Below are positions 21,391 to 37,623 of a stretch of DNA of 64,000 nt, piece after piece. The notes beneath the pieces are model-generated. The model did not search any database and was not told the origin of the DNA. It worked only from the letters and a program-made list of their open reading frames with translations. The stretch is taken from positions 2,832,001 to 2,896,000 of the forward strand of contig NZ_CP064942.1 in assembly GCF_015679265.1 (NCBI RefSeq), written 5' to 3'. Origin of the DNA: Pontivivens ytuae. GTDB lineage: Bacteria; Pseudomonadota; Alphaproteobacteria; Rhodobacterales; Rhodobacteraceae. Each line of letters begins with the position of its first letter. Within the stretch, counting starts at the first letter, position 1. Made by a program: the position numbers and the translations under genes.

Positions 21391-21411
21391 GTCCGGGCTC
21401 CGGATGGGGAA

Positions 21412-21437
21412 GGGGCGGAGCCACATGGCCCCGCCCC
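21412..21437 (-). other. Stem-loop between phnD and phnE
   Basis: A strong hairpin lies eight bases after the phnD stop: GGGGCGG (21412-21418) pairs with CCGCCCC (21431-21437), then one A/C mismatch, then GCC/GGC around a four-base loop. No T run follows. The likely role is stabilising the phnD message. Confidence 0.6.
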
Positions 21438-21445
21438 GGATCGGA

Positions 21446-22354: not shown

Positions 22355-22385
22355 GTTGTTCTCCCTGATGCGGCTTGTTGTGGTG

Positions 22386-23186
22386 TCAGCCGGGGACGTG
22401 GACGGCTTGCGTCGACGTCACGGCCTCGTTGAACTCGCGCAGGCCCTCTAGCCCGTAGATGTCGCGCACCACGTCGTCGGTGAGCTGGGCCGCGACCCCG
22501 TCGAAGAAGATCCGGCCGCCGCGCATCGCGACGATGCGGTCGCAATAGGCGCGGGCGGTGTCGAGGGTGTGGAGGTTCACCAAGACGGTGATCCCCTCGT
22601 CCCGGTTGATGTCGCGCAGCCCGTCCATCACCAGCGTCGCGTTGGCAGGATCGAGGGAGGCGATGGGCTCGTCCGCCAGCATGATGCGCGGCTGCTGGAC
22701 GAGCGCCTTGGCGATCGCCACCCGCTGCTGCTGTCCGCCCGAGAGCGTGCCCGCGCGCTGCAGCGCCTGGGGTGCGAGGTCGAAGCGGTCCAACGCCTCG
22801 ATCGCCATGGTGCGCTCGGCATCGGTGAAGTGCATCGCCATCGACGACAGGAACCCGCGCTCGGCCAGCCGCCCGATCAGGACGTTGGTCAGCACGTCGA
22901 GCCGTTCGACGAGGTTGAACTGCTGGAAGATCATCGCGCAGTCACGGCGCCAGGCTCTGAGCGCGCGTCCGCGTAGGGCGCTGACCTCGGTCTCCCCGAA
23001 CAGGATGCGTCCGTCGGTGGGTTCGATGAGGCGGTTGATGAGCCGCAGCATCGTGGACTTGCCCGCGCCCGAGCGGCCGATGACGCCCACGAACTGACCC
23101 GGTTGCACGTCGAGAGAGACACGGTCCACGGCTTTCGTCTCACCGAAATGACGGGACACGTTGTCGAGCCTCAGCACGTCCACCAT
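22386..23186 (-). CDS. phnC: Phosphonate-type ABC transporter ATP-binding protein
   Basis: This 266-residue ATPase energises the PhnDE importer. Motifs in order are Walker A GRSGAGKST (residues ~37-45), Q-loop FQQFNLVERLDV, signature LSGGQQQRVAIAKAL, Walker B IMLADEPIASLD and the switch region VNLHTLD. The NLHTLD form, with His after Leu, is typical of PhnC proteins. The ATG at 23186 has GAGG upstream and begins with the usual first strand (VLRLDNVSRHFG). It is the first gene of the operon; an inverted repeat lies in its upstream region. Confidence 0.92.
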   Translation of the reverse strand: MVDVLRLDNVSRHFGETKAVDRVSLDVQPGQFVGVIGRSGAGKSTMLRLINRLIEPTDGRILFGETEVSALRGRALRAWRRDCAMIFQQFNLVERLDVLTNVLIGRLAERGFLSSMAMHFTDAERTMAIEALDRFDLAPQALQRAGTLSGGQQQRVAIAKALVQQPRIMLADEPIASLDPANATLVMDGLRDINRDEGITVLVNLHTLDTARAYCDRIVAMRGGRIFFDGVAAQLTDDVVRDIYGLEGLREFNEAVTSTQAVHVPG

Positions 23187-23230
23187 ACGCGATCCTCGAA
23201 CCGTTGCGTTGGCGGTGGAGTACCCCTGCT

Positions 23231-23261
23231 TTGTCACAGCCCGACTCACTCGAGGTGACAA
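23231..23261. promoter_or_regulatory. Inverted repeat upstream of phnC
   Basis: TTGTCAC (23231-23237) and GTGACAA (23255-23261) form a perfect 7-bp inverted repeat with a 17-base gap, 45-75 bases upstream of phnC. It could be an operator. It does not have the direct-repeat layout of a Pho box, so PhoB control is not supported. Confidence 0.4.
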
Positions 23262-23357
23262 TTTGACGAAAATTGCCGCGAACGCGGGCGGGGTGTCGGT
23301 CGTCTGCCTTGCACGAAGCAGATTGGCGTCCCGCTCCTCGGGATCAGGCAAACCGGC

Positions 23358-24314
23358 TCAAGTGGTGGCCGTTTCCTTCGTCAGCCGTGAGGGTGCGTCG
23401 GGGTCGAGGCCGCGCGCGCGGGCCGCGGCCTCCAGCGCCACGTAGATCGGCGCGAGGTCGAGCAGCGGATCGACCAGCGGGTGCAGCGACGGCCGCTCGG
23501 GCGGATGCAGCGTCCGGGTGCCCGGCAGCGGATCGCCACGTTCGAGGTCCAGGACGGGGTAGTCGCCGTGCAGCGCCTGCATCGGCCCGTGCCGGATTTC
23601 CGCCGAACTGAAGGCGAGCGCCGTGGTTTGGCAGAGCTCCATGGATTTCAGCGCGAGTTCCTGCGCCACGCCCAGCGACGGCCCGCGTCCGACGACGATG
23701 AGGCGGTCGGTGGTTCCCAGCACCTCCGCGATCCCATCCGTCCGCCGTGTCAGCGCGTCGGCGAGCGCGTCGGGCAGCCGCTCCGTCGCGTCCAGCAGCT
23801 CCGTTGCCTCGTGCCACATCCCGATCACCCGCAGCCCCGCGACGACCGAGGCGACATAGCTCTTGGTCGCGGCCACCGCCCGCTCCGGTCTCGCGCCGAT
23901 ATCGATGACCTGCTCCGAGGTGCGGGCGAGGGGGCTGCCCGCCGTGTTGGTCAGCACCAGCAGCGAGGCGCCGCCATCCCGCATCGCCGTCGCCGCCGCA
24001 ACGATGTCCGGGCTGCTCCCCGACTGGCTGATGGCGAGCGCCGCCGCCCCTGCCGCCCGCGGCTCCTGCCGGTGCAGCGAGGCGAGCGACAGCGGGTAGG
24101 AGGCCGGGATCACCCCCGACACGATCCCGCAGGCATACGACAGGTACGTCGCGGCGTGGTCCGAACTGCCGCGCCCGACCGTCACCAGCAGCGGGGGATC
24201 GAGCGCCCGCCACTCCGCCGCCGCGGCCCGGATCGCCTCGTCCGCAGGTCCCGACAGGAGGCGCGCGCAGGCCGCCGGGATCTCCGCGATCTCACGCGCC
24301 ATGTGGCTGGTCAT
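23358..24314 (-). CDS. SIS-domain sugar-phosphate isomerase/deaminase (NagB-II/AgaS-like)
   Basis: This 318-residue protein has two SIS (sugar isomerase) domains, as in the isomerase half of GlmS and in SIS-type glucosamine-6-phosphate deaminases. Domain one has VGRGSSDHAATYL and the ISQSGSSPD phosphate-binding serines; domain two has VGRGPSLGVAQELALKSMEL. The late segment SSAEIRHGPMQAL resembles the active-site loop of NagB-II/AgaS-type deaminases. The start at 24314 overlaps the cupin gene stop by four bases. It is the last gene of a sugar-importer operon that also has a PfkB kinase. Release of ammonia from an amino-sugar phosphate is the favoured reaction; a fructosamine deglycase (FrlB/FraB-like) is the main alternative. 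Confidence 0.8.
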   Translation of the reverse strand: MTSHMAREIAEIPAACARLLSGPADEAIRAAAAEWRALDPPLLVTVGRGSSDHAATYLSYACGIVSGVIPASYPLSLASLHRQEPRAAGAAALAISQSGSSPDIVAAATAMRDGGASLLVLTNTAGSPLARTSEQVIDIGARPERAVAATKSYVASVVAGLRVIGMWHEATELLDATERLPDALADALTRRTDGIAEVLGTTDRLIVVGRGPSLGVAQELALKSMELCQTTALAFSSAEIRHGPMQALHGDYPVLDLERGDPLPGTRTLHPPERPSLHPLVDPLLDLAPIYVALEAAARARGLDPDAPSRLTKETATT

Positions 24315-24841
24315 GGACGGCGTACCATCGACAGGAAGGCGGGCTCGGTCAGCGGAAGTGGCTCGCCACTCTCCCAATCGTAGAGCGAGCGCTCGACCTT
24401 GCCGAGCGGGCCGAGATAGACGTGCAGCCCGAAGCTCGGCGCGCCATCCAGCGCGATCACCGAATGCACGCAGGCGGGGCTGAAGGCATGGACCTGCCCC
24501 GGCCCGAGGTCGAGCACGCCGCCCGGATGTGCTCTCCCGCCCGCCACATGCCAGAGCCGGTTCCGCTCCCGCCCGCGATAGACGCCGAGGAAGGCGGGCA
24601 TCGCGTGGTCGTGGGGCGGCAGCTCTGCATCGGGCTCGAACCGCTCGTGCCAGATGCTCACCGTATCGTCTTCGAAGAGGCAGACCTCGCCCTCGGGTTC
24701 CGGCAGCGCGGCGTCGAGCGCCCGCGGATCCGCGAAGGTGCGCACCATCAGCGCCATGGTCTCCGCCTCGGGGTCGGGCGCGGCCGCCGCAGCGCGGGCG
24801 CGGGACACGAAATCATCCAGATGCTGCACGTCGTCCCTCAT
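24311..24841 (-). CDS. Cupin protein, thiol-dioxygenase-like
   Basis: This 176-residue protein has a double-stranded beta-helix (cupin) fold. The first metal-binding motif is PPHDHAMPAFLGVYRG (two histidines, then G) around residue 75, and the second is in ACVHSVIAL with a further HVYLG strand. This pattern is that of proteins distantly related to cysteine dioxygenase. A non-heme iron dioxygenase or a sugar-binding cupin are both possible; the usual glutamate of the first cupin motif is not obvious. It overlaps both neighbours by four bases, so it is part of the same catabolic operon. Its substrate is unknown. Confidence 0.7.
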   Translation of the reverse strand: MRDDVQHLDDFVSRARAAAAAPDPEAETMALMVRTFADPRALDAALPEPEGEVCLFEDDTVSIWHERFEPDAELPPHDHAMPAFLGVYRGRERNRLWHVAGGRAHPGGVLDLGPGQVHAFSPACVHSVIALDGAPSFGLHVYLGPLGKVERSLYDWESGEPLPLTEPAFLSMVRRP

Positions 24842-25722
24842 GCCGATACCGGTTTGCGCGCCGCCGAGAGACCGCCGGGCCGGGTGACCGCCAGCGCGCC
24901 GCAGGCCACCCCGGTCTGCAGCGCGTCGTCGAGCGGGGCGCCCTCCAGCCAGCGCGACAGGAACCCGGCGGCGAAGGCATCGCCCGCGCCGGTCGCATCG
25001 ATCACCTCGATCCGCGGGGCGGGGCGCGTCGTGCTTCGTCCGCCTTCCCGCGCTTCGGCCCCGTCCGCACCGCGCTTCACCACGGTCAGCGGGGCGGGGC
25101 AGGGCGGCAGGCCGAGGGATGTGAGCTGCGCCGCTTCATCCTCGTTCGGCAGGAACACGTCGAGGGCCGCGACCAGCGGCGCGCAGCTCGCATCCAGCGC
25201 ATCGTCCCAGCCGCAATCGGAGGAAAGCGTCGCCCCAGCCGCCCGCGCGAGGTCGATGAGGTCCGGGCGCTCCACCAGCGTCCTCAACTCGCCCACATGC
25301 AGATGCCCGACCCCGAGCCGCTTGAGGTCCGCCGCCTCGGGCATCGGCGCCACGGGACCGGGCGCGCGGGTCAGGAACGCGCGGTCGTCGCCGCGCACCA
25401 TGGCAACGGTGATCTGCGGTTCGGGGGTCGAGGCGGGCGCGCAGAGCTCCATCCCCACCTCCGCCGCCTTCAGCTCCCGCGTCACCGGAGTATCGAAGGG
25501 CGCGGCCGGCAGGTGCGCGCAGAGCTCCGCCCGGCGCCCGAGGCTCGCGAGCCACCCTGCGGTGATCGCCGCCCCGCCGCCCGCATGCAGCGACAGCCCG
25601 TCGGCGAAGACCTCGCGGCCCAGTGCCGGATCGCTCGGCACGCCGATGAAGACGAGGTCGCAATAGACGCGGCCCACGCAGAGGACCGCGCCGCGCCGGG
25701 GGCTGAGGACGGCGTCCTTCAT
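24838..25722 (-). CDS. PfkB-family sugar kinase
   Basis: This 294-residue sugar kinase is of the PfkB/ribokinase family. The C-terminal signature [13 protein letters not shown] (about residues 241-253) contains the catalytic aspartate and anion hole; the N-terminal glycine pair is seen as [18 protein letters not shown]. It overlaps the cupin gene and the ATPase gene by four bases each. In the operon it would phosphorylate the imported or processed sugar before the SIS protein acts. Fructosamine kinase FrlD and glucosamine kinases are possible comparisons; sequence alone does not tell the sugar. Confidence 0.85.
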
Positions 25723-26780
25723 GCCGGCACCCGCGCGAGGGCGGCGCCCGAGGCCTTGTCGAAGACGTGGAGGTCCTCTGCCGCGGCCCCCAGCCGGACC
25801 GTCGAGCCGACCTCGGGCGGCGTGCGCGCATCGGCCTTCGCCACGATCTCCCCTGCAGCCGTGTCGACGTAGATCAGGGTGTCGGGGCCGAGCGGCTCGC
25901 GCACCGTCACCCGCCCCTCCACCAGCGCCGGGCCCTCCACCGGTTGCAGATCGTCGGGCCGGACGCCGAGCAGGACCGGGCCCTGCGCCGCCACGGGCAG
26001 CGCGATCGCTCCACCGCCGGGCAACTGGGCCGCGGTGTCCGACGCCTCCGCCTCGATCATGTTCATCGATGGCGCCCCGATGAAGCGGGCGACGAAGGTG
26101 TTCGCCGGATGGCGGTAGACCTCGTCCGGCGTGCCGACCTGCTGGATATGCCCGTCCTTCATGATCACGATCCGATCAGCGAGCGTCATCGCCTCCACTT
26201 GGTCATGGGTGACGAAGACAATGGTGGAGCCCACGCGCTGGTGCAGCTTCTTGATCTCCAGCCGCATCTGGGTGCGAAGCTGCGCGTCGAGGTTCGAAAG
26301 CGGCTCGTCGAACAGGAACACCGCCGGGTCGCGCACCATTGCCCGCCCGATCGCCACCCGCTGGCGCTGTCCGCCGGAGAGCTGCGCAGGCTTGCGGGCG
26401 AGGAGCGGCGTCATGTCGAGGATCCCGGCCACCTCGTCGATCCGCCGCTCCTTGTCCGCGCGCGGCATCTTGGAAGCGCGCAGGCCGAAGCCGATGTTCT
26501 TCCTCACCGTCATGTGCGGGTAGATCGCGTAGTTCTGGAAGACCATGGCGATGTCCCGGTCCTTGGGCTCCAGGTTGTTGACCACGCGCCCGCCGATGGC
26601 GACATCGCCGGCGCTGATCTCCTCCAGCCCCGCGATCATGCGCAGGGTGGTGGACTTCCCGCAGCCTGACGGGCCCACCAGCACCACGAACTCCCCGTCG
26701 GCGATGTCGAGGTCGATGCCGTGCAGCACCTCGGTCTCGCCATAGCGCTTGGTCAGGTTCCTCAGGGCGAGATGGGCCAT
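25719..26780 (-). CDS. Sugar ABC transporter ATP-binding protein (UgpC/MsmK type)
   Basis: This 353-residue ATPase powers the importer encoded by the same operon. Walker [11 protein letters not shown]-loop [10 protein letters not shown], signature LSGGQRQR, Walker [12 protein letters not shown] and VTHDQVEAM appear in order, followed by a C-terminal regulatory domain containing [12 protein letters not shown] 26780 is used because the protein then starts with the usual [14 protein letters not shown]. It lies between the PfkB gene (four-base overlap) and the lyase gene (two bases away), showing that importer and enzymes are co-transcribed. Confidence 0.9.
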
Positions 26781-26782
26781 GT

Positions 26783-28264
26783 CTATCCTCTCAGCGCGTC
26801 GAAGGCGGCGGTGCGGGCCGTGTCGGCGGCGGCGTGGCGGTCGGTGCGGGCGGTGGTGCTGGCGCGCAGGGCGTCGAGCTCCGCCGCGTAGGTCTCGAAG
26901 GCCGCGTCGAGTGCTGTCGGAGCCGGGCCGCCGGGCCGGTCGCGCCGGGCAACTAAGGTTTCGGGTGCGACCGTCTCGGCAAAGGCCGCGTCGTCGAGCG
27001 TCGGTGCACGCCCGGCCCGCTCCTCGAACGCCACGCGGAAGGCCTCGAAGCCCGCGCCCAAAGGCACGCCCCGGGCGATCACGTCGCGCGCCGTGGCCGC
27101 CGCGATCTCGTGCGCCGCCCGGAAGGTCAGCCCTTCCTGCCGGACCAGCGTGTCGGCGAGCTCGGTGATCGTCACGCACGCCGCATCGGCGTTGCGCTGC
27201 ACCTTCTCCCCATCAATGCGCGCGCCATCGAGGACGGAGGACATCAGCCGCAACATCCGCCCCCCGCCCTCGAACGCCGCGTGCCCCGCCTGCTGAACCT
27301 CTCCCTCGCTGTCGTTCATGTCGGTGAATGGCGTGTTGCGCATCGCGTCCACGATCGCGTCGCACCGCCCGGCGGCGACGCTCGCGAGGTGCCGCATATG
27401 CTCGATCGGCACCGGATTGCGCTTCTGCGGCATGATCGAACTCACCTGCACCAGCGCGTTGGGTAGCCGCAGCTGCCCGACCTCGAAGGCCGACCAGAAG
27501 GCCATGTCTTGCACCACGCGGCCCAGATGGACGAAGACCAGTTTCATCGCGGAGTAGAGCCCGGTGACGTAGTCGACCGACGCGATGCAGCCATAGGAGT
27601 TGAGAAGCGGCCGCTCGAAACCCAACAGCTCCGCCACCCGCGCCCGGTCGATGGGAAAGCCGGAGGTGGTGATCGCGGCCGCACCCATCGGGCATAGCTC
27701 CAGCAGGTCCGCGGCCTCGCTCACCCTTCGGGCGTCGCGCAGCAGGACTTCGAGGGCGGCCGACAGGTAGTGGCCGTAGGTCGAGGGCTGGGCGGGCTGG
27801 CCATGGGTATAGGCGACGATCAGCGTGTCCCGCTCCGCCCGCGCCTTCGCGAGCATCGTGGCGGCGAGGTCGTGGAGCAGCCCCTCGAAGGCCGCGACCC
27901 GGCTGCGCAGCGCCATCTTGAAGATCGTGTGGTCGATGTCGTTGCGCGACCGCGCGGTGTGGAGCGCGCCGCCCAGTTCGCCAAGCCGCGCCCTCAGCTC
28001 CGCCTCGACGAGAAAGAACCAGTCCTCGTGCTCGCCAGTATAGGTGAGTTCCTCCGGGTCCATCTCTTCTGCGATGGCGTGGAGGGCACCCGCCATCCGG
28101 CCTGCATCCTCCGCCGTCAGGATCCCGGTCTCTGCCAGCATGACGAGATGCGCGCGGTCTACGGCGTCCATGTGTTCCGCGAAGTTCGCCTTCACGCCCT
28201 CGAAGAGCGGGGCAAGCACCGTGTCGCGGTAGACCGGATCGGGGAAGGTGCTGCGGTCAGTCAT
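26783..28264 (-). CDS. Argininosuccinate-lyase-like enzyme of the fumarase/aspartase superfamily
   Basis: This 493-residue enzyme is of the superfamily that splits C-N or C-O bonds and usually releases fumarate. ArgH-like signatures are visible: [11 protein letters not shown] (about residue 103), [17 protein letters not shown] with the catalytic base region, and [15 protein letters not shown], the mobile catalytic-serine loop. The chain is ~30 residues longer than usual ArgH, with an Ala/Arg-rich tail. It lies inside a sugar-importer operon, two bases upstream of the ATPase gene, so a catabolic role on an imported N-substituted compound is more likely than arginine synthesis. No other arg gene is in the window. 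Confidence 0.78.
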
Positions 28265-28341
28265 TGGTGCACCTCCGCAAGGGTTGGCACCTGGGGTTCC
28301 GCTTGGCTGCCGCTCGTCCGGGGCTCCGCCCGTTCGCGGCT

Positions 28342-28364
28342 CAAACGCTCCACCAGAGCGTTTG
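28342..28364. repeat. Perfect hairpin, possible dispersed repeat, between lyase and permease genes
   Basis: CAAACGCTC (28342-28350) and GAGCGTTTG (28356-28364) form a perfect 9-bp stem with a five-base loop. It sits in a 121-base gap that is the only large gap in this operon. GC-rich flanks (GCCGGC and CCGGGGC runs) give it a REP-like look, but only one copy was noticed in this window. Confidence 0.5.
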
Positions 28365-28385
28365 CCGGCTTTGCCGGGCCGCCGC

Positions 28386-29282
28386 TCACCCCTTCAGCCC
28401 CGCCATGACGACGCCTCGGATGATGAAGCGCTGGAAGATCAGGAAGACGATCAGCGTCGGGATGGTGGAGATCGCGGCCCCGGTCATGATCAGCTCCCAC
28501 GCCACGTCCGCCTCGTCGCCGAAGCCCGACAGGCCCACCGGCAGGGTGTAGAGCTCCACCGAATTGGTCACGATCAGCGGCCACAGGAACGCCGTCCAGT
28601 TGCCGAGGAACACGAAGATCGCGAGGGCTGCCAGCGCAGGCCGCACCAGCGGCATCGCCACCGTCCACCAGATCTGGAACTCGTTGAGCCCGTCGATCCG
28701 CGCCGCCTCGATGAAATCGTCGGGCACGCTCTCGAAGAACTGCTTCATCAGGAACACGCCGAAGGCCGTCATCAGCCCCGGGAACATGATGCCCCAATAG
28801 GTGTCGAGCCAGCCGAAGCTCTGGCTCATCAGGTACCACGGGATCACCAGCATCTCGGTCGGGATCATCAGCGTGGACAGGATCGCGATGAAGACGATCT
28901 GACGGCCCGGGAACTTGAACTTGCAGAGCGTGTAGCCCACCAGACTGTCGAAGAAGAGGTTCGAGATCGTGGTCAGCACCGCGATGATCAGCGAGTTGAC
29001 GAACCAGCCGTAGAACCGCCCGTCCTCCAGCACGTAGGTGTAGTTCTCGATCGTGGGTTCCTCGGGGATGAGGTTCACGTTGTAGACCTCGTGCGGCCAC
29101 TTCAGCGAGGTCGAGATCATGTAGGCGATGGGCATCACCATGATGATCCCGCCGAGAAACAGCAGCATCCAGCGGATCACGGCGGCGTTGTCGCGCGGAC
29201 CACGCCCGGTGGGCCTGGCGAAGAGTGCCTTGGAGGAGGGCTTCGCCGTCTCGGGAACGTCCGTCAGGGTCACGCCGGCCAT
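28386..29282 (-). CDS. Sugar ABC transporter permease (MalG type)
   Basis: This 298-residue inner-membrane permease starts with a ~35-residue cytoplasmic tail before the first helix (WMLLFLGGIIMVMPIAYMI). The EAA docking loop reads FIEAARIDGLNEFQIWW, and the end is QRFIIRGVVMAGLKG, the usual tail of the second permease in CUT1 sugar importers. It begins one base after the stop of the first permease gene, so they are co-translated. The carbohydrate is not known; the enzymes of the operon point to an amino-sugar-type compound. Confidence 0.9.
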   Translation of the reverse strand: MAGVTLTDVPETAKPSSKALFARPTGRGPRDNAAVIRWMLLFLGGIIMVMPIAYMISTSLKWPHEVYNVNLIPEEPTIENYTYVLEDGRFYGWFVNSLIIAVLTTISNLFFDSLVGYTLCKFKFPGRQIVFIAILSTLMIPTEMLVIPWYLMSQSFGWLDTYWGIMFPGLMTAFGVFLMKQFFESVPDDFIEAARIDGLNEFQIWWTVAMPLVRPALAALAIFVFLGNWTAFLWPLIVTNSVELYTLPVGLSGFGDEADVAWELIMTGAAISTIPTLIVFLIFQRFIIRGVVMAGLKG

Positions 29283-29283
29283 C

Positions 29284-30171
29284 TCAGTCGCTCCTCAACA
29301 GGCGGAGCTGGATCAGGCTGACGACCAGCAGGATGAGGAACAGGACCACCGTCTGCGCCGCCGCATACCCCATGTCGAAGCTCGAAAACGCCGTCTCGTA
29401 GATCATCAGCACCAGCGGCTTCGTGGCATTCAGCGGCCCGCCGGGATTGTTCGTTGTCATGTTGAAGACGTGGTCGAAGATCCGCAGGAACCCAATGGAG
29501 GAGAAGACCACGATGAACACGATCGTGGGCCGCAGAAGCGGGATGGTGATCTGCGTGAGCTGCGTCCACCAGCCCACCCCGTCGATCCGCGCGGCCTCGT
29601 AGTACGACGTCGGGATCGCGCGCAGCCCGGCCATGAAGATGATGACCTGAAAGCCCAACCCGGCCCAGACTGCCGGGGCAAGCACGGCGGGCAGCGCATT
29701 GGTCGTGGAGTTTAGGAACGCGATCTGCGGGATGCCGACGCTCGCCAGCATGTTGTTGAAAAGCCCCGTCGGCACCGGCTGGTAGAACCACCGCCAGACC
29801 CACGCCATCGCCACCGCACTCGTCATGAACGGCAGGAAGTAGAGCATCCGCAGGAACCCATGTGCGGTGCGCACCTTGTCGAGGTGATAGGCGATGATGA
29901 AGGAGATCAGCAGCGAGATCGGCGTGCCGATCAACAGGTATTCGAAGGTGTTGATGAAGACCTTCCAGAACACCGGGTCGTTCCAGAGTTTCACGTAGTT
30001 GTCGAGGCCGGTCCAGCTTCGCGTGCCCAAGAGGTTCCATTCCTGGAACGAGATCACGAAGGCATTGCCGGTCGGATAGAACCGGATCACGACGTAGAAG
30101 ATCACCGGCACGGCGAGGAAGGCCCACGCCCAGGCGATCTGCTTCTGCCGAATGGTCAGGTTCTTGAACAT
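29284..30171 (-). CDS. Sugar ABC transporter permease (MalF type)
   Basis: This 295-residue permease is the partner of the MalG-type protein. It begins MFKNLTIRQKQIAWAWAFL, leading into the first membrane helix, and carries the docking loop YYEAARIDGVGWWTQL near residue 195. ATG 30171 is favoured because AAGG lies seven bases before it; a GTG at 30192 would add seven residues and has no ribosome site. It follows the binding-protein gene after a stem-loop. Six hydrophobic segments match the family. Confidence 0.88.
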   Translation of the reverse strand: MFKNLTIRQKQIAWAWAFLAVPVIFYVVIRFYPTGNAFVISFQEWNLLGTRSWTGLDNYVKLWNDPVFWKVFINTFEYLLIGTPISLLISFIIAYHLDKVRTAHGFLRMLYFLPFMTSAVAMAWVWRWFYQPVPTGLFNNMLASVGIPQIAFLNSTTNALPAVLAPAVWAGLGFQVIIFMAGLRAIPTSYYEAARIDGVGWWTQLTQITIPLLRPTIVFIVVFSSIGFLRIFDHVFNMTTNNPGGPLNATKPLVLMIYETAFSSFDMGYAAAQTVVLFLILLVVSLIQLRLLRSD

Positions 30172-30193
30172 TTCGCCGCCTTGGTTGGACACC

Positions 30194-30215
30194 GGCGCGG
30201 CCCGAGGACCGCGCC
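30194..30215 (-). other. Stem-loop between binding-protein and permease genes
   Basis: GGCGCGG (30194-30200) pairs with CCGCGCC (30209-30215) around an eight-base loop, extendable with one bulge. It begins eight bases after the binding-protein stop codon. There is no T run. It resembles the hairpins found at the same place in the smo, phn and NitT/TauT operons. Confidence 0.6.
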
Positions 30216-30222
30216 GCCGGGC

Positions 30223-31470
30223 TCACTCGCCGTAGTATTCGTCGAGGATCGCCTGCTCGGCCGCTGCGGCCTCAGCCAGGCTCTCGGCCATGTCCTGCCC
30301 CTCAATGTCGACGCGGGCGAGCATGTCGACGAGGATCTGCCGCTGCGCGCTCTCATCGGCGAACTTGGTGGTGTGGGCGTAGTCGAGCCCCCGGATGAAC
30401 GGGCCGAAGGTTGGGTCGTTGGCGTTCTCGTCGGTCAGACCCACGGACGGCTTCGCGGGCAGCTCACCCACCACGTCGAGCCAGATCTGCATGGCCTCGT
30501 CCGACACCACGTATTCCATGAAGCGCACGGCGGCGTCGTAGCGCTCACCTTCAGCCTTCGTCGTTATCGCGTTCACCCAGTAAGAGGAATAGTTGGAGCG
30601 CGTGCCGTCCGGCCCCGCCGGCAGCTCGGCGACGCCATAGCGAAGCCCGCGCACATCCTCCAGCGAGCCGATGCGGAAGCTGCCGTCGATATGCATCCCT
30701 GCGCGCTGCGCCTTGAAGGCTGCCTGCGGCTCATCCATGAAGCCCGACGCGGTCACACCGTGCTCGCTTTCGAGACCGGCATAGAACTCGAGCGCGGCCT
30801 GCCCGGCCTCCGAATTCCAGTTCACGTTGCGATAGTCGTCGGTATAGGGCTCGCCGCCGAACTGGCGCACCAGCACTTCGCGGAACCAGTGGTGGTCCTG
30901 CGCGGTCATGCCGGTGGTGATGCCGACCTGCGTGATGTTGCCCGCACCGTCCCGCTCGGTCAGGGCCGCCGCGATCTCGACCATCTCGTCGAGCGTCTCG
31001 GGCGGGCCCTCGATCCCCGCCTCCTCAAACAGCCGCTCGTTGTAGAAGAGCGCGAGGCTGCGCACCGCCGTCGGCAGGGCGAAATACTGCCCGTCCCGCT
31101 TCATCGCGCCGACCATGGGGAAGAACTCCGCATCGATCACCTCCGGATCGAAGGTGTCGGTGGGCAGCGGCTGGATCAGCTCCGCCTCGATGTAGTCGTT
31201 CAGCCAGCCGTAGAAGAGCTGGACCACGTCCGGGCCTTCACCCGCCGGGATCGCCGCCGCGACCTTGGTGCGGTAATCGGCATAGGGGAAGTGGGTCATC
31301 GTGACGGTGATGTCCGGGTTCGCTTCCTCGAAGTTCTCGATCAGCGTCTCCATCGCGGTCACCCGCGCGTCGAAGAAGTACTGCCAGTATTCGATTTCCA
31401 CTTGAGCGGAGGCCGTGCCACCCGCCAGCGAGCCCGCCGCGGCAAGGGCGGCCAGTTTCATCCTGAGCAT
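30223..31470 (-). CDS. Sugar ABC transporter substrate-binding protein (CUT1 type)
   Basis: This is a periplasmic binding protein of 415 residues with a signal peptide (first ~22 residues, ending TASAQ). The mature protein begins VEIEYWQYFFDARVTAMETL, the usual opening strand and helix of family 1 sugar-binding proteins. A GEGPDVVQLFYGWLNDYI segment gives the ligand-pocket loop. The ATG at 31470 has GGGAG seven bases upstream. It is the first gene of the eight-gene minus-strand operon and is divergent from a ROK regulator, with a shared 118-base control region. The ligand is unknown. Confidence 0.9.
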   Translation of the reverse strand: MLRMKLAALAAAGSLAGGTASAQVEIEYWQYFFDARVTAMETLIENFEEANPDITVTMTHFPYADYRTKVAAAIPAGEGPDVVQLFYGWLNDYIEAELIQPLPTDTFDPEVIDAEFFPMVGAMKRDGQYFALPTAVRSLALFYNERLFEEAGIEGPPETLDEMVEIAAALTERDGAGNITQVGITTGMTAQDHHWFREVLVRQFGGEPYTDDYRNVNWNSEAGQAALEFYAGLESEHGVTASGFMDEPQAAFKAQRAGMHIDGSFRIGSLEDVRGLRYGVAELPAGPDGTRSNYSSYWVNAITTKAEGERYDAAVRFMEYVVSDEAMQIWLDVVGELPAKPSVGLTDENANDPTFGPFIRGLDYAHTTKFADESAQRQILVDMLARVDIEGQDMAESLAEAAAAEQAILDEYYGE

Positions 31471-31543
31471 CGTGTTCTCCCGGTTCCTGTCACCGCCCCG
31501 ATCTCGTGGATCCCCGTCAGCGGCGCTCCCCCTTCAGCCTAAA

Positions 31544-31575
31544 CTCAATTTTCTTGAGTAATCAAGTTTGTTGAG
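31544..31575. promoter_or_regulatory. Double inverted repeat in the divergent promoter (probable ROK operator)
   Basis: CTCAATTTTCTTGA (31544-31557) and TCAAGTTTGTTGAG (31562-31575) are arms of a 32-bp palindrome with a four-base centre; the outer CTCAA/TTGAG and inner CTTGA/TCAAG blocks match exactly. It is an AT-rich island in GC-rich DNA, 13 bases before the ROK gene, in the only space from which both divergent units can be controlled. Confidence 0.75.
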
Positions 31576-31588
31576 CTAGCCATGAGCC

Positions 31589-32764
31589 ATGGCAGCCGCA
31601 ACACCCTCTAAACCGCGCTCGCTCGGCGCGAATCCATCCCGGTCGCGGGACCACAACCGCCAGATGGTGTTGGGACAATTGCGCGCGGGGGGCGCGCTGG
31701 GCCGGGCGGAGATCGCGCGGCGCGCGGGGCTCACGACTCAGGCCGTGAGCAACATCATCGCGGATCTGGAGGGGGAGGGATTGCTCCAGATCGTCGGCAG
31801 CGCCCGAGGGCGACGGGGGCTGCCGGCGACTCAGTACGCGGTCAATCCCAGCGGGGGCTATGCGCTGGGCATCGAGCTGCGGCCCGCGGCGGTGCTGATC
31901 GCGCTGCTGGACCTCGCCGGCGATCCCGTCTGGCAGGACCGCGTCGCGCTGGGCCGGGCCGATCCGGCGGGGGTGGCCGCGATCCTGCCAGGGCTGCGGG
32001 AGGCCGCACTCGCCGCGGTTCCGGGCGCGCGGGGGCGTCTCCTCGGCGCCGGGATCGTCATGCCGGGCCCCTTCGGGCGCACGGCCCTCTCCGGTCAGGC
32101 GACGGACCTGCCGGGCTGGACGGAGGTCGATCCCGATGCGCACCTCTCCGTCACGCTCGACCTGCCGGTGATCGTGCAGAACGATGCCAACGCGGCCGCG
32201 ATGACCGAGCGGATCGCGCTCGCCGCCGAAGGGCTCGACAGCTTCGCCTGCCTCTATTTCGGCACCGGTCTGGGCCTCGGCATCGTGCAGGACGGCCGCC
32301 TCGTCGCCGGGGCCTACGGGAACGCAGGCGAGATCGGGCGCCTGCCGATCCACGCGAGGGGCGCGCTCGTCCCGCTGGAGGAGATCCTGTCCCGCGACGC
32401 CCTTGAACGGCGCCTCGCCGCCGCCGGGATCACGGCCTCCGACATGGACGCGATCGCAGCGCTTCACAGCGACGGAATCCCTGCGCTGACCGACTGGATG
32501 GAGGAGGCGAGCGCCGCGCTCTCCCAGGCCCTCGCGGTTATCGAGAACATGCTGGACCCCGCCGCCACGATCCTCTGCGGCGCGATGCCCGAGGGCCTGC
32601 TCCGCGACCTGATCGCCGGAACCGAGCTGCCCGCCACCGTTACCCGCCGCCCCGATGGCGCGGGGCCGCCCCTGCGCATCGGCACCTGCTCCCGCATGGC
32701 TGCGGCCCGCGGCGGGGCGGCGCTGGTGCTCGCCCAGTCCTTCACCCCCACGCTCGCCGCCTGA
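31589..32764 (+). CDS. ROK-family transcriptional regulator (NagC/XylR type)
   Basis: This 391-residue regulator has an N-terminal winged helix (MVLGQLRAGGALGRAEIARRAGLTTQ region, residues ~27-55) followed by a ROK sugar-kinase-like fold. The fold keeps NDANAAAM and GTGLGLGI, but the usual HxxxxxxxxxCxCGxxGC zinc motif is absent: NAGEIGRLPIHARGALV has Arg where His is expected, and no cysteines follow. It therefore looks like a pure sensor without the structural zinc. It is divergent from the sugar importer and just upstream of the PIG-L gene (six-base gap), so it probably controls both. The ribosome site is weak. Confidence 0.85.
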   Translation: MAAATPSKPRSLGANPSRSRDHNRQMVLGQLRAGGALGRAEIARRAGLTTQAVSNIIADLEGEGLLQIVGSARGRRGLPATQYAVNPSGGYALGIELRPAAVLIALLDLAGDPVWQDRVALGRADPAGVAAILPGLREAALAAVPGARGRLLGAGIVMPGPFGRTALSGQATDLPGWTEVDPDAHLSVTLDLPVIVQNDANAAAMTERIALAAEGLDSFACLYFGTGLGLGIVQDGRLVAGAYGNAGEIGRLPIHARGALVPLEEILSRDALERRLAAAGITASDMDAIAALHSDGIPALTDWMEEASAALSQALAVIENMLDPAATILCGAMPEGLLRDLIAGTELPATVTRRPDGAGPPLRIGTCSRMAAARGGAALVLAQSFTPTLAA

Positions 32765-32770
32765 GGTCCC

Positions 32771-35014
32771 ATGACGCCTGACCAGTCCCGGCTCGAAACC
32801 GACCGCGCCACGCCGCGCATCTTGGCGCTGTGGCATGCGCTGAGCGCGCTGAAGACGCCGGTGCTCTTCATGCAGTCCGGCGCCCATCCCGATGACGAGA
32901 TGTCGGCGATGCTCGCCGCCCTGCGCTTTCGCGACGGGATCGACCTCGCCTATGTCTGCTCGACGCGCGGCGAGGGCGGGCAGAACGATATCGGGCGCGA
33001 GGCCGGAGCAGCACTCGGCGCCCTGCGCACGGCGGAGATGGAGGGGGCGGCCCACCGCCTCGACATGCGGCTGTGGTGGATGGGCGAGGGGCCCGACGAC
33101 CCCATGGCCGATTTCGGTTTCTCGAAGTCGGGGGAGGAGACGCTGGCCCGCTGGGGCCGCGAGCACACGCTGCGCACCTTCGTCCGCGCCGTGCGGCAGG
33201 CCCGGCCCGACATCCTGTGCCCCACCTTCCTCGACGTGCCCGGGCAGCACGGCCACCACCGCGCCATGACGCTGATCGCGCACGAGGTGATGGAGTGTGC
33301 CGCCGATCCGGCCTTCGTGATTGAGGGCGCCACGCCCTGGCAGGTCGCGAAGCTCTACCTGCCCGCCTGGTCCGGCGCGGGCACCGCCTATGACGACGAC
33401 CTGCCGCCGCCGCCCGAGACGGTGATGGTTTCGGGCGAGGGCCGCGATCCCGTGACCGGCTGGACCTGGGCGCGGATGGGTCAGCATTCCCGGGCGCTGC
33501 ACCGGACGCAAGGCATGGGCCACTGGCCGCGTAAGGGGCGGGACTTTCCGCTTCACCTCGTCGGTGGAGGGGCGGAGGCGTCGATCCTCGACGGCCTGCC
33601 CGCGGACCTCGGCGCGCTCGGCCACAGCGTGGTGCAGGAGGCCATGGACGCCGCCATCGCCGCCTGGCCCGACGGCGCCTCGATCGCTCGCCATGCCGCC
33701 GAGGCGCTGTCCCTGCTGCCCGACCAGCCCGATGGCCCCGACGCGCATCGGTTGGAGCGCAAGCGAAAGCAGCTCGCCCGCGTCCTCTGGCTTGCATCGG
33801 GGGCAGAGGTCCGCGGCGCCGCCGCCCGGTCCTTCGTCGCGCCGGGCGAGAGTGCCGGGATCACGCTGGAGCCCCATGCAGGCGATGCCGAGGCGCTGGA
33901 GGCGCAAGTCCTGCCACCCGAAGGCTGGACCGGCGACACCCCCGATCCGGGCCACGTGCCGCCCGCCTATCCCATGACCTACGACCCGCTCGATCCGCCG
34001 CGCCCGGGCATCGCGGCCTCGGCGATCATTGCGGGGCAGGGGATCGAGGTCCGCCTGCCGCTCGACCGGACTGCCGCGGCCCTGCCGGCCGGGGTGACGC
34101 TCGATCCGCCCGCGGAGGTCATCAACCTCGCCACTAGCGCGCGCTCCGCCGCCGTGGTCCTTCGCCCCGAGAGTGCGGCGCTGGAGCTGCCCGACGGATG
34201 GAACCGCACGGATGGCACGCTTTCGCTGCCCGAAAGTGCCAAGCCGGGCCATCACGACCTCCCCGTCACCCTCGACAGTGCCCCGGCCTTCACCGTCATG
34301 CAGATCGAGGCGCCGCACACCGCGCCCCGCGTCCTCGCCCGACCCGCGGTCCTGCGCCTCGCGCTGCTCGACGTGGCCCTGCCGGAGGCCCGGATCGCCG
34401 TCGTCGGGGCGGGCCGTGATCGGGTTGCGCACTGGCTGCGCCGCATCGGTGCCGATGTCACCGAGCCCGACCTCGCCGCCATCGACGCGGGCCTGCCGGG
34501 CGTCGACACGCTCGTTCTCGGCATCTTCGCCCTGCGCTTCCGCCCGGGCCTGGCCGAGCGCATAGCCCGCATCGCCACATGGGTGCGGGAGGGTGGCACC
34601 CTCGTCACCCTTTATCACCGCCCCTGGGACAACTGGGATCCCGCGGCGATGCCCGCGCGGCTGGAGATCGGCCAGCCCTCCTTACGCTGGCGCGTCACCG
34701 ACGAGCGGGCCGAGGTCACGCATCTCGCCCCCGATCACCCGATCCTCACCGGCCCCAACCCGATCGGGCCGGAGGACTGGAGAGGCTGGCACAAGGAGCG
34801 CGGCCTCTACTTCGCCGCGCGCTGGGACGAGGCCTACCGCCCGCTCCTCTCCATGGCCGATCCGGGCGAGGCGCCGCTCGAAGGCGCGCTCGTCTCCGCC
34901 GAGATCGGCGCGGGTCGCCACAGCCACTGCGCGCTCATCCTGCATCATCAGATGGAGCAGCTTGTCCCCGGTGCCTTCCGCCTGATGGCGAACCTCTGTG
35001 ACCCCCGCCGCTGA
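32771..35014 (+). CDS. Very large PIG-L (LmbE)-family deacetylase with C-terminal extension
   Basis: This 747-residue protein has an N-terminal PIG-L deacetylase domain (~residues 28-270). The metal-binding motif AHPDDE is at about residue 38 and the second motif GQHGHHRAM at about 160; these enzymes hydrolyse N-acetyl or other amide groups on sugars, typically GlcNAc conjugates. The remaining ~470 residues contain a beta-rich middle and a Rossmann-like C-terminal part (RIAVVGAGRDRVAHWLRRIG, then VREGGTLVTLYHR) resembling a class I amidotransferase-like fold. Typical PIG-L enzymes are 220-300 residues. No signal peptide is seen, so it is probably cytoplasmic. It lies six bases after the ROK gene and overlaps the next gene by 17 bases. 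Confidence 0.82.
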   Translation: MTPDQSRLETDRATPRILALWHALSALKTPVLFMQSGAHPDDEMSAMLAALRFRDGIDLAYVCSTRGEGGQNDIGREAGAALGALRTAEMEGAAHRLDMRLWWMGEGPDDPMADFGFSKSGEETLARWGREHTLRTFVRAVRQARPDILCPTFLDVPGQHGHHRAMTLIAHEVMECAADPAFVIEGATPWQVAKLYLPAWSGAGTAYDDDLPPPPETVMVSGEGRDPVTGWTWARMGQHSRALHRTQGMGHWPRKGRDFPLHLVGGGAEASILDGLPADLGALGHSVVQEAMDAAIAAWPDGASIARHAAEALSLLPDQPDGPDAHRLERKRKQLARVLWLASGAEVRGAAARSFVAPGESAGITLEPHAGDAEALEAQVLPPEGWTGDTPDPGHVPPAYPMTYDPLDPPRPGIAASAIIAGQGIEVRLPLDRTAAALPAGVTLDPPAEVINLATSARSAAVVLRPESAALELPDGWNRTDGTLSLPESAKPGHHDLPVTLDSAPAFTVMQIEAPHTAPRVLARPAVLRLALLDVALPEARIAVVGAGRDRVAHWLRRIGADVTEPDLAAIDAGLPGVDTLVLGIFALRFRPGLAERIARIATWVREGGTLVTLYHRPWDNWDPAAMPARLEIGQPSLRWRVTDERAEVTHLAPDHPILTGPNPIGPEDWRGWHKERGLYFAARWDEAYRPLLSMADPGEAPLEGALVSAEIGAGRHSHCALILHHQMEQLVPGAFRLMANLCDPRR

Positions 35015-35888
35015 CCCCGTCGCCCGCTCCGAGTGGCGGGGCGGAGCATGGCTCATCCTCGACATGGCGCTCAACATCTGGGCGCTGGTCATCGTGAAGG
35101 CGAGCGGGGCGGAGTTCCCGGCGGTCCAGCTCGTCTTCCTTCGCGCGGCGGTGGGCCTCGCCCTGATGCTGCCGTGGATCCTGCAAGCACGGGGCGACTT
35201 CGCGCAGGCCCGGCGACCGCGGCTGCATCTCGCGCGGATCGCGCTGTCCTCCGTCACGCTGACGGCGAGTTTTCATGCGGTCGCCAACCTGCCCTTCGCG
35301 CTCTACACCGCGGTGAACTTCACCCGGCCGCTGGTGATGATCGCGCTGGCCGCGCTCTTCCTCGCCGAACCCGCCACGCCGCGCCGCTGGCTGGCGGGGG
35401 CGCTAGGGCTGATCGGCGTCGTCGTTGCGGTCGATCCGCGGGGCGCGACGCTGGACCCGGCCCTCTTCGCCATGGCGGTGACGGTGATCGCGGGCACGGC
35501 GGCGATCGTCGTTACGCGCAAGATCAACGACCAGCCGCCCGTCGTGCTGATGACCGCCTACACCGCGGGCCTGATGGTCACGACCGCGGGCCCCGCGCTC
35601 TGGTCCTGGCAGCCGGTCGCGTCCGGGGACTGGCCGGTGCTGCTGGCCATCGGCCTTTTCGCGCAGGCGGCGCAGTTCTGCTTCCTGCGCGCGCATCGCC
35701 ACGCCTCCGCCGGGCTGCTGGCCATCGTCGGCTATTCCAGCCTGATCCTGTCCACCGTCGTCGGCTGGCTGGTGTTCTCCGAAGTGCCCACGGCGGCGTT
35801 CTGGATCGGGGCCGCGGCGATCATCGGGGCCACCTGGATCGCTCGCCCGGCCACGCCCAGATCTCCCGGAGCAGGTCGCTCCCCCTGA
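34998..35888 (+). CDS. DMT-superfamily transporter (EamA family)
   Basis: This is a 296-residue inner-membrane protein with about ten hydrophobic helices arranged as two EamA repeats (residues ~15-140 and ~150-285). The typical late first-repeat segment NFTRPLVMIALAALFLAEP and the GALGLIGVVVAVDP stretch are present. Such proteins often export or exchange amino acids and metabolites. It starts with GTG inside the last 17 bases of the PIG-L gene, so it is coupled to it. It could export a by-product of the neighbouring pathway; its own substrate is not evident. Confidence 0.82.
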   Translation: MTPAADPVARSEWRGGAWLILDMALNIWALVIVKASGAEFPAVQLVFLRAAVGLALMLPWILQARGDFAQARRPRLHLARIALSSVTLTASFHAVANLPFALYTAVNFTRPLVMIALAALFLAEPATPRRWLAGALGLIGVVVAVDPRGATLDPALFAMAVTVIAGTAAIVVTRKINDQPPVVLMTAYTAGLMVTTAGPALWSWQPVASGDWPVLLAIGLFAQAAQFCFLRAHRHASAGLLAIVGYSSLILSTVVGWLVFSEVPTAAFWIGAAAIIGATWIARPATPRSPGAGRSP

Positions 35889-35892
35889 CGCC

Positions 35893-35906
35893 TTGATATC
35901 GATCAA
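35893..35906. promoter_or_regulatory. FNR/FnrL box upstream of bchE
   Basis: TTGATATCGATCAA matches the FNR consensus TTGAT-N4-ATCAA at all ten fixed positions and extends to a 9-bp inverted repeat (CGCCTTGAT / ATCAAGGCG). It is 49-62 bases upstream of bchE. Anaerobic activation of bchE by FnrL is established in Rhodobacter relatives. Confidence 0.88.
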
Positions 35907-35932
35907 GGCGTCCACCGCATCGCCCCGTAGAC

Positions 35933-35950
35933 TGTCAACAAAAGTGGACA
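35933..35950. promoter_or_regulatory. PpsR/CrtJ-type box upstream of bchE
   Basis: TGTC-N10-GACA matches the PpsR/CrtJ consensus TGT-N12-ACA in its extended form. It ends four bases before the bchE start and overlaps the ribosome-binding region. PpsR represses photosynthesis genes under oxygen, so this would be a second, aerobic brake next to the FNR box. Confidence 0.8.
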
Positions 35951-35954
35951 TGTC

Positions 35955-37619
35955 ATGATGCGTATACTCCTCATTCATCCGAACTACCATTCCGGCGGCG
36001 CCGAGATCGCAGGTAACTGGCCGCCCGCCTGGGCGCCCTACCTCGCCGGACCGCTGAAACGCGCGGGGTTCGAGGTCCATTTCATCGACTCCATGACCGA
36101 GGATATCGGCGAGGACACGCTGCGCGCCCGCATCGCGGCGGTGAAGCCCGACCTCGTCGGCGTCACCGCGATCACTCCTTCGATCTACGCGGCGGAGCGC
36201 ACGCTGGAGCTGGCGCGCGAGGCGGCACCGGAGGCCCTGCGCGTCCTCGGCGGCGTCCACGCGACCTTCATGTACAAGCAGGTCCTGTCCGAGAGCGACG
36301 CGGTCGACGTGATCGTGCGCGGCGAGGGGGAGGAGATCTTCGTCGCCCTCGCCCAGGCCGTCGCCACCGGCGCATGGCCCGAAAATCGCCGCAGCATCAA
36401 GGGCCTCGCCTTCCGCGACGGGGAGCAGATCGTGGCGACGCCCGCCGCCTCCACCGTCCGCGATCTCGACGGGATCGACCCGGACTGGTCGATCATCGAG
36501 TGGGACCGCTACATCTATATTCCGCTCAACCGCAAGGTCGCGATCCCGAACCTCGCCCGCGGCTGCCCTTTCACCTGCTCGTTCTGCAGCCAGTGGAAGT
36601 TCTGGCGCGACTACCGCGTGCGCGATCCGAAGAAGGTGGTGGATGAGATCGAGGCGCTGGTGAACGACCACGGCGTCGGCTTCTTCATCCTCGCCGATGA
36701 GGAGCCGACGATTAACCGCAAGAAGTTCATCGCCTTCTGCGAGGAGCTGATCGCCCGCGACCTGCCGCGCCGCATCCAGTGGGGCATCAACACCCGCGTC
36801 ACCGACATCCTGCGCGACGAGGAGCTGCTGCCGCTCTACCGCCGCGCCGGTCTCGTCCACGTAAGCCTCGGCACCGAGGCCGCCGCCCAACTGAAGCTCG
36901 ACCGCTTCAACAAGGAGACGAAGGTCGAGGACAACCGCCGCGCCATCGAGCTGCTGCGCGAGGCCGACATCTTCACCGAAGCACAGTTCATCGTCGGGCT
37001 GGAGAACGAGACGGTCGAGACGCTGGAGGAGACCTATCGCTACGCCCGCGAATGGAACCCCGACCTCGCCAACTGGTCGATGTACACGCCCTGGCCGTTC
37101 ACGCCGCTCTTCCAGGAGCTCGGCGACAAGGTCGAGGTGTTCGATTTCTCCAAGTACAACTTCGTCACCCCGATCATGAAGCCCGAGGCGATGGACCGCG
37201 CCACGCTGCTCGACCGGGTGATGGCGAACTACCGGCGCTTCTACATGTGGAAGGCGCTGTTCCACTATCCATGGCGCGGGACCGGCTACCGGCGGCGCTA
37301 CCTCCTCGGCTGCCTGAGGGCGTTCCTCAAGGCCGGGGTGGGCCGGACGTTCTACGACCTCGGCAAGGTCGGCTACTGGGGGCCGCAGACCAAGAAGAGC
37401 CTCGACTTCCAGTTCGACGAGACCCGCCAGATCGCCCAGGCCCAGACCGACGATTGGGAGGCCGCGGCCGAGCGCAGCCGCAAGGTGAAGGAGCGTCAGG
37501 CCGCGATCCGCGCGCAGGGCAAGGCACGCGCGGCCGAGATGGCGGCAAAGGCCTGCGGCGGGGGCGATGGCCAGATCGACGCGCTGGTCCTGCCGGACGC
37601 GCGACCTCCGGCCGAGTAG
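35955..37619 (+). CDS. bchE: Mg-protoporphyrin IX monomethyl ester oxidative cyclase, anaerobic (BchE)
   Basis: BchE forms the fifth ring of bacteriochlorophyll without oxygen, using a radical SAM centre and, by family, cobalamin. The 554-residue protein begins [20 protein letters not shown], the characteristic BchE opening and cobalamin-binding-type domain (residues ~1-145). The radical SAM cluster motif is C204-P-F-T-C208-S-F-C211. A lysine- and arginine-rich helical tail (residues ~495-540) ends the chain. A second in-frame ATG three bases downstream is an equally possible start. It is four bases ahead of bchJ. This gene marks the organism as a bacteriochlorophyll maker able to do so at low oxygen. 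Confidence 0.93.
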
Positions 37620-37623
37620 TCCG

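Follow-up and report, generated by a model that had tools for sequence, protein, structure and literature searches.

A conserved gene set with an ArgH-like lyase in Pontivivens ytuae as a candidate route for the scavenging of glucosamine conjugates

Results

The window analyzed in this study is a stretch of 64,000 nucleotides (contig NZ_CP064942.1, positions 2,832,001 to 2,896,000) from the genome of Pontivivens ytuae, which comprises 4.2 Mb in one contig. It carries eight minus-strand genes encoding a solute-binding protein (SBP), two permeases, an ArgH-like lyase, an ATPase, a PfkB kinase, a cupin, and a SIS protein, divergent from genes for a ROK regulator, a PIG-L hydrolase, and a DMT transporter. 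Pfam and NCBIfam searches confirmed all eleven genes at the places and strands and in the families given by a preliminary description of this DNA, with the exception of the cupin, for which Pfam gave no significant match. Overlaps of about 4 bases at the ATPase/PfkB, PfkB/cupin, and cupin/SIS borders are as expected for one transcription unit. We tentatively propose, at just short of an even chance, that the operon scavenges a conjugate of glucosamine with a C4 dicarboxylic acid; the likeliest candidate is glucosaminyl-malate, which forms the core of bacillithiol, along with its N-acyl forms. In the general form of a glucosamine conjugate cleaved by the lyase, with a route ending at glucosamine-6-phosphate, the proposal is quite probable.

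Conservation was assessed in 292 genomes of the order with thresholds of E<=1e-30 for PIG-L and E<=1e-120 for lyase relatives. Each of the two was found in 33 genomes, both in 32, and either in 34 (Fisher 2e-40, phylogeny not controlled); G269 has only the PIG-L and G273 only the lyase protein. This co-occurrence indicates that the gene set is not a product of chance. In a phylum-wide sample the lyase (E<=1e-100) was present in 6 out of 398 genomes, five of them from the same family as P. ytuae. For a comparison of gene neighborhoods, 51 loci were selected by the presence of a lyase with at least 45% identity. The neighborhood proved to be conserved, since the SBP, both permeases, and the ATPase accompany the lyase in all 51 loci, with the SBP gene inverted in L086. 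PIG-L was found in 44 loci, a ROK regulator match in 46, and the DMT gene in 28 of the stretches as fetched. The eight minus-strand genes of the preliminary description do not hold as a core set: the cupin occurs in 2 and an adjacent deaminase in 11 of the 51 loci, and PIG-L, from the other arm, is missing in 7.

Enzymes of the fumarase/ArgH superfamily free fumarate from an X-succinate. The ArgH-like lyase (26783..28264, minus strand; Lyase_1, 2.2e-41) is proposed to be a glucosaminyl-malate (or N-succinyl-glucosamine) lyase releasing fumarate. Its relatives are labeled 'argininosuccinate lyase' in plasmid records, and the protein passes TIGR00838 with 296.7 bits (cut-off 279.5), as would a duplicate arginine-biosynthesis gene that came into a sugar operon by accident. 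The latter is extremely unlikely. A genuine ArgH with 611 bits to the same model is encoded elsewhere in the genome (G000:C1:989903-991264), on which ground a function of the operon lyase in arginine biosynthesis was rejected; furthermore, substrate-side residues are changed and the linkage to the other genes is conserved.

When 51 operon lyases were aligned to 26 ArgH proteins, both sets had the same conserved residue at 75 positions, among them RSRND, TH, SSIMPQK, and the Glu partner, while 44 positions were conserved within each set but differed between them. ArgH residues H153, S274, S275, K280, N282, and E287 are kept, and the catalytic pattern of the superfamily (SSxMPQK Ser loop, TH, and Glu partner) is found as S275, S276, K281, N283, H154, and E288. 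In goose delta-crystallin the equivalent His and Glu are active-site residues, the His touching the fumarate moiety (PMC2779060). In contrast, the ArgH motif Y314/K316/Q319 is replaced by D315, N317, and E320, each in at least 95% of the operon lyases; by motif reading, K316 would correspond to active-site K323 of goose delta-crystallin (PMC2779060). Since the fumarate-side residues are kept and the Y/K/Q motif is changed, release of fumarate is expected, with another leaving group. RSRND, TH, and SSIMPQK are shared with argininosuccinate lyase and EDDS lyase alike, whereas the changed motif and a neighborhood of sugar catabolism set the operon lyase apart from ArgH. The idea of a lyase removing a dicarboxylate aglycone is supported. 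It had also been stated that the lyase has no place in an amino-sugar route, but it does fit a glucosamine route if the conjugate is glucosaminyl-malate.

Two PDB entries that rank second-best by sequence for the lyase, 6rx8 and 6g3d, are labeled argininosuccinate lyase, and we take both to be EDDS lyase. They speak for the main rival explanation, in which the substrate consists of glucosamine N-linked to succinate. It would be N-(2-deoxyglucos-2-yl)-aspartate, the Heyns compound formed from fructose and aspartate, or else an acylated or asparagine variant. Through C-N cleavage, as with ArgH and EDDS lyase, the lyase would yield fumarate and glucosamine, followed by the kinase and the deaminase. 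This needs C-N chemistry only and ends at glucosamine-6-phosphate as required. Moreover, EDDS lyase adds many amines to fumarate (PMC12363623). On plasmid B of Cereibacter sphaeroides 2.4.1 (L167, 2372-9549) an asparaginase gene is divergent from genes for an amino-acid ABC importer, an ArgH-like lyase with 33% identity to that of the window, and a SIS protein nearest to fructoselysine-6-phosphate deglycase (79.7 bits). This set is a possible fructose-asparagine or glycated-aspartate pathway of a laboratory strain, and it indicates that such lyases can sit among glycated-amino-acid genes. However, N-linked succinate leaves no role for PIG-L, present in 44 of the 51 loci, or for a thiol dioxygenase, and no asparaginase is listed in the incomplete gene table of the opened window-family plasmid loci. 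We regard this explanation as unlikely, though deserving of attention. A haloarchaeal ArgH-like lyase (33.5%) was also seen on a Haladaptatus plasmid (L162, 7016-9416), beside a rhodanese-domain gene.

The PfkB-family kinase (24838..25722, minus strand; PfkB, 7.4e-28) is a proposed glucosamine kinase. Kinases of this type were found in 31 of the 51 loci and ROK kinases in 8, and none was found in 12. The SIS protein (23358..24314, likely start, minus strand) is proposed to be a glucosamine-6-phosphate deaminase of the NagB-II type. Its best NCBIfam match is the NagB-II model NF046059 with 206.8 bits, below a cut-off of 430 that was passed in none of the 292 genomes; the model of fructoselysine-6-phosphate deglycase (NF008481) gave 20.1 bits. 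PDB matches were 3fj1 (2.9e-58) and the NagB-II entry 8eol (1.7e-42). The SSAEIRHGP loop noted earlier was found; between its region and the C-terminus the protein is about 23 residues shorter than 3fj1 (263-277 vs 265-302).

Among the 11 loci with an adjacent deaminase gene, it is of the SIS type in 7 and NagB-I in 4. The SIS gene follows the kinase (or cupin) gene in the window, L051, L088, L149, L150, L151, and L160. In L071 and L083 the kinase gene is followed by NagB-I, and in L072 and L115 NagB-I sits in the other arm, next to PIG-L; TIGR00502 scores (cut-off 236.9) were 242.1 for L083, 222.5 for L071, and 245.3 for L072. That one position is taken by either of two unrelated enzymes which catalyze the same reaction is the best evidence in this analysis for glucosamine-6-phosphate as the endpoint, and the pathway probably ends at this compound. 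NagB-I or a NagB-II-like protein is encoded in 32 of the 33 lyase genomes (all but G172) compared to 115 of the 259 others, with a Fisher p-value of 1.3e-9 that overstates the case because the genomes are related. The amino-sugar chemistry suggested in the preliminary description thus gains support from the likeness of the SIS protein to NagB-II and from NagB itself, which takes the SIS position in two loci and adjoins PIG-L in another two.

An Amadori (fructosamine) operon like frlBONMD-frlP of B. subtilis or fra of Salmonella, in which the lyase would be an addition serving aspartate adducts, has to be considered at this point. Both systems share a SIS protein and a kinase with the operon, and the frl system further includes a type I ABC importer made up of SBP, two permeases, and ATPase, so that importer, kinase, and SIS gene are of the same types (PMC12632257). 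However, the SIS protein of frl and fra is a deglycase, whereas the one described here is NagB-II-like and exchangeable with NagB. Neither lyase nor PIG-L is described for frl or fra in the available parts of the sources. A true NagB occupies the SIS position in L071 and L083, and a deglycase role of the SIS protein was rejected in view of 20.1 against 206.8 bits. An Amadori operon is very unlikely.

The large PIG-L/LmbE hydrolase (32771..35014, plus strand), a proposed N-acyl-glucosamine amidase or deacetylase, consists of an N-terminal LmbE domain, a beta-rich middle part, and a C-terminal GATase1/ThuA-like domain. The LmbE fold with the AHPDDE and the distal HxxH motif is present. This domain matched MshB and BshB by fold; by sequence, no PDB match was obtained at 0.001. 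According to a review, every LmbE enzyme so far identified, bacillithiol-conjugate amidase included, has a substrate with an N-acetyl- or N-acyl-glucosamine core (PMC4101496). Two stretches of genome G269 (L073 and L161) carry a full-length PIG-L relative (38-40%) without lyase or importer in the fetched sequence. The distant locus L069 (12544-16042) has a further, diverged large PIG-L gene behind that for the ROK kinase and may use two PIG-L steps, as in Deinococcus.

Chitobiose deacetylase is also among the PIG-L fold matches. This would suit an ordinary catabolism of N-acetylglucosamine glycosides via PIG-L, kinase, and deaminase, with the lyase acting on an unrelated compound. The archaeal chitin/chitobiose route (Dac deacetylase and SIS-type GlmD) likewise combines a PIG-L deacetylase with a SIS glucosamine-6-phosphate deaminase, although it has a glycosidase instead of a lyase and a different importer. 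A PIG-L deacetylase acts in archaeal chitin breakdown (PMC4101496), together with a SIS deaminase according to the preliminary description. Against such a catabolism, the importer stays with the lyase where PIG-L (7 loci), kinase (12), or deaminase (40) were not found, as counted in the 51 lyase-chosen loci. We consider ordinary glycoside catabolism improbable.

The cupin (24311..24841, minus strand) is of the thiol-dioxygenase type by fold and sequence. Its nearest folds in the VIA-align list are thiol dioxygenases, which supports the earlier suggestion of an oxidation by this protein. Fold and metal-site pattern are shared with cysteine dioxygenases (CDO) and 3-mercaptopropionate dioxygenases (3MDO), although the residue two before the His of HxY is Gly in the cupin and Ser in the aligned solved 3MDO sequences. 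H77, H79, H126, H140, and Y142 are invariant in 41 sequences and presumably represent the three metal-binding His and the distal HxY. Pfam gave only a weak Cupin_2 match (E 0.14); the annotated CDO-family protein of L118 likewise has no Pfam match at 0.01. Relatives of the cupin (E<=1e-8) were found in 17 of the 292 genomes, and in the 16 besides that of P. ytuae no operon gene lies within 1.5 kb, apart from a weak phnC match in L040. In Roseinatronobacter a gene annotated as cysteine-dioxygenase-family adjoins the DMT gene. A role as core enzyme was rejected on account of the distribution (2 of 51 loci), and the cupin is regarded as accessory.

The importer is composed of a CUT1-type extracellular SBP (30223..31470; SBP_bac_8, 1.6e-41), ABC permeases 1 (29284..30192; BPD_transp_1, UgpA-like) and 2 (28386..29282; BPD_transp_1, UgpE-like), and an ABC ATPase of the UgpC/MalK type (25719..26780, likely start), all on the minus strand. 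The ATPase, searched without its first seven residues, reached 486.2 bits with NF008653 (cut-off 432). PDB sequences nearest to the SBP are acarbose/maltose-type binders. Six arginines are near-invariant across 51 SBP sequences, and one of these, R137, aligns with an Asp of the acarbose binder GacH. As judged from the alignment, the arginines are suggestive of an acidic ligand; they were not counted as a test.

The two arms are separated by an intergenic region of exactly 118 bases (31471-31588), as previously described. The 32-bp palindrome reported therein (31544-31575) is present but imperfect, with 22 of 32 positions equal to the reverse complement. It resolves into two operator-like 15-bp inverted repeats CTCAA-N5-TTGAG, 17 bp apart and without strand, of which the first (31544..31558) is perfect and the second (31561..31575) has one mismatch. 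Within 400 bases upstream and 20 downstream of the SBP start, such a site with at most one mismatch was found in 31 of the 51 loci (30 of 50 if L003 and L154, which are one contig, are counted once) compared to 0.6% of mononucleotide-shuffled regions. The loci without the site (L069-L072, L074, L082-L088, L115-L117, L149, L150, L156, L157, and L160) mostly belong to a more distant branch. The adjoining regulator gene (31589..32764, plus strand) codes for a ROK-family protein (ROK, 9e-25) with a MarR-type helix-turn-helix, and the shared regulation of both arms put forward earlier is supported. A consensus scan of 22000-36200 yielded no sigma-70-like promoter, and neither an Rfam scan of 19000-40000 (gathering threshold) nor a tRNA scan gave a match.

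An analogous gene set is present on Deinococcus plasmids. The order ROK-lyase-large PIG-L-SBP-permease-permease-small PIG-L-PfkB was seen in D. wulumuqiensis, D. ficus, and D. actinosclerus (3 of 7 plasmid loci); the large PIG-L of the latter two, annotated as NEW3-domain or hypothetical protein, was identified by similarity. The D. deserti locus lacks the large PIG-L, and KNUC1210, D. psychrotolerans, and D. aetherius have lyase-SBP-permease-permease. Identities to the window proteins are 42-58% for the permeases, 40-43% for the SBP, 34-37% for the lyase, and 27-28% for PfkB. The Deinococcus lyases share the D-x-N-D part of the operon-lyase motif and, in a tree built from 40 rows, group with the window-family lyases (support 96/87) and away from ArgH. 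In D. wulumuqiensis the large PIG-L matched BshB1 best (58.1 bits, cut-off 182.5) and the small one MshB (146.9 bits, cut-off 224.35). Linkage of lyase, PIG-L enzyme, importer, and kinase thus extends over two phyla, the PIG-L perhaps by separate recruitment. Lyase, SBP, and permeases are related to those of the window, whereas the PIG-L is alike in the N-terminal domain only, a second, small PIG-L is present, and no ATPase gene is listed. No paper on this plasmid operon was found in the literature searched. D. radiodurans produces bacillithiol (PMC4360819).

Several other genes surround the operon. A phosphonate-type ABC transporter (19586-23351) is located directly downstream of the SIS gene on the same strand and comprises PhnC, PhnD, and a PhnE-like permease by Pfam as well as a second permease by reading of frames. 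In the other 50 loci phnC matches were weak (27-36%), and none adjoined a SIS gene. The genes at 35955-38193 encode a B12-binding radical-SAM protein and, next, a protein whose V4R domain falls short of the Pfam cut-off (E 5e-6), a pair resembling the partners of the anaerobic bacteriochlorophyll cyclase. Only the C-terminal molybdopterin-dinucleotide-binding part of a molybdoenzyme was found at 38731-39393 (Molydop_binding, 1.4e-17), resembling a remnant of a larger gene. Beside the operon of Aminobacter sp. MSH1 (L117, 1-2072), a taurine-binding protein gene and a gene for a GntR/aminotransferase-type protein are possibly mere neighbors.

Discussion

The analysis shows the gene set and its conservation, the exchange of kinase and deaminase types, the retained catalytic residues of the lyase, and the LmbE and thiol-dioxygenase folds. 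In the route proposed below, every substrate, the identity of the malate, the order of the steps, the role of the DMT protein, and the ROK target are inferred. The ABC importer would take in the glucosamine conjugate, and PIG-L would hydrolytically remove the cysteinyl or acetyl group that acylates the glucosamine nitrogen; loci without PIG-L may import glucosaminyl-malate itself. The lyase would then beta-eliminate fumarate from the malate aglycone, leaving free glucosamine. Phosphorylation by the PfkB kinase, or a ROK kinase elsewhere, would give glucosamine-6-phosphate, which the SIS deaminase, or NagB elsewhere, would convert to fructose-6-phosphate and ammonia. The DMT protein would carry the freed cysteine out of the cell; in the window and a few other loci, the thiol dioxygenase would oxidize it instead. 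The ROK protein would control both arms via the CTCAA-N5-TTGAG pair.

To our knowledge, (N-acyl-)glucosaminyl-malate is the only natural X-succinate with glucosamine and an N-acyl group that can be named, and it fits each of the steps above. Bacillithiol is Cys-GlcN-malate, GlcN being glucosamine (PMC4360819). The operon may serve the degradation of bacillithiol by a dedicated importer for bacillithiol or GlcN(Ac)-malate and a novel glucosaminyl-malate lyase (C-O beta-elimination), with reuse of carbon, nitrogen, and cysteine and, in the window, oxidation of the cysteine by the thiol dioxygenase; this extended version is possible, at a chance somewhat below even. Among the substrates guessed earlier, 'thiol-sugar conjugates' comes closest to it. 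Mycothiol was set aside by reasoning, because its inositol aglycone is not eliminable by an ArgH-type lyase.

The DMT/EamA transporter (34998..35888, plus strand; EamA, 2.8e-20) is perhaps an exporter of the released moiety. Its gene, present in 28 of the 51 stretches, could also belong to a detoxification in which thiol-sugar S-conjugates are cleaved and the cysteine conjugate is exported, following the logic of Bca and Mca (PMC4360819). Importer, ROK control, and kinase-deaminase tail point to carbon and nitrogen use instead, and we give detoxification only a slight chance.

A number of observations weigh against glucosaminyl-malate as the substrate. C-O elimination from a glycoside is a presumed reaction for the lyase superfamily, whose known relatives mostly cleave C-N bonds. 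PIG-L is absent from 7 of the 51 loci and an adjacent deaminase from 40, with a SIS gene 2 kb off in L052. The operator is lacking in 20, including two of the window's own genus (L149 and L150). Thiol-dioxygenase genes occur in 3 loci, two of them from one genus, and it would not be surprising to meet one CDO neighbor by chance among 51 loci. Almost equal fold matches to MshB, BshB, and chitobiose deacetylase were obtained for the PIG-L protein, which matches neither the BshB1 nor the BshB2 model at E 0.001 and matches Mca weakly, far below the cut-off. The joining of Deinococcus and window-family lyases was flagged as a possible long-branch artefact, and no deaminase appears in the gene listings of the Deinococcus loci. 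The large Deinococcus PIG-L resembles that of the window over the N-terminal 176 residues only (35-36%), and a search with the window PIG-L (E 1e-10) yielded no Deinococcus plasmid among 21 records; hence PIG-L may have been recruited twice. This limited likeness and the fold of the cupin pull in opposite directions and left our estimate unchanged.

Synthesis and recycling of bacillithiol by BshA, BshB, BshC, and Bca likewise involve an LmbE hydrolase on N-acyl-glucosaminyl-malate, the same core metabolite as proposed here. These enzymes, however, serve synthesis or detoxification in the producer rather than import and breakdown, and lyase, kinase, and deaminase steps are not described in the available parts of the sources. 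In the open-access literature, covered by titles and starts of abstracts, no described pathway with this gene set was found, in agreement with the preliminary description, and no degradation route for glucosaminyl-malate or bacillithiol was among the matches listed. The enzyme families are known; within the literature searched, their combination and the proposed glucosaminyl-malate lyase step appear to be new.

Polaribacter sp. MED152 is a marine strain. It makes N-methyl-bacillithiol, and bacillithiol together with its derivatives is predicted to have the widest distribution among bacterial thiols (PMC6282198). In the available text of a review, glucosaminyl-malate is only 'presumably' recycled (PMC4101496). 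If our proposal is true, the operon provides for the degradation of a thiol that is very widespread in bacteria, as a source of carbon and nitrogen. The thiol made by Bacteroidetes, Firmicutes, and Deinococcus would be food for Alphaproteobacteria, and Deinococcus would have its own plasmid version of the route. A lyase that frees glucosamine from malate would correct the 'argininosuccinate lyase' label on plasmid records, add a glycoside to the leaving groups of the ArgH family, and make the fate of bacillithiol testable.

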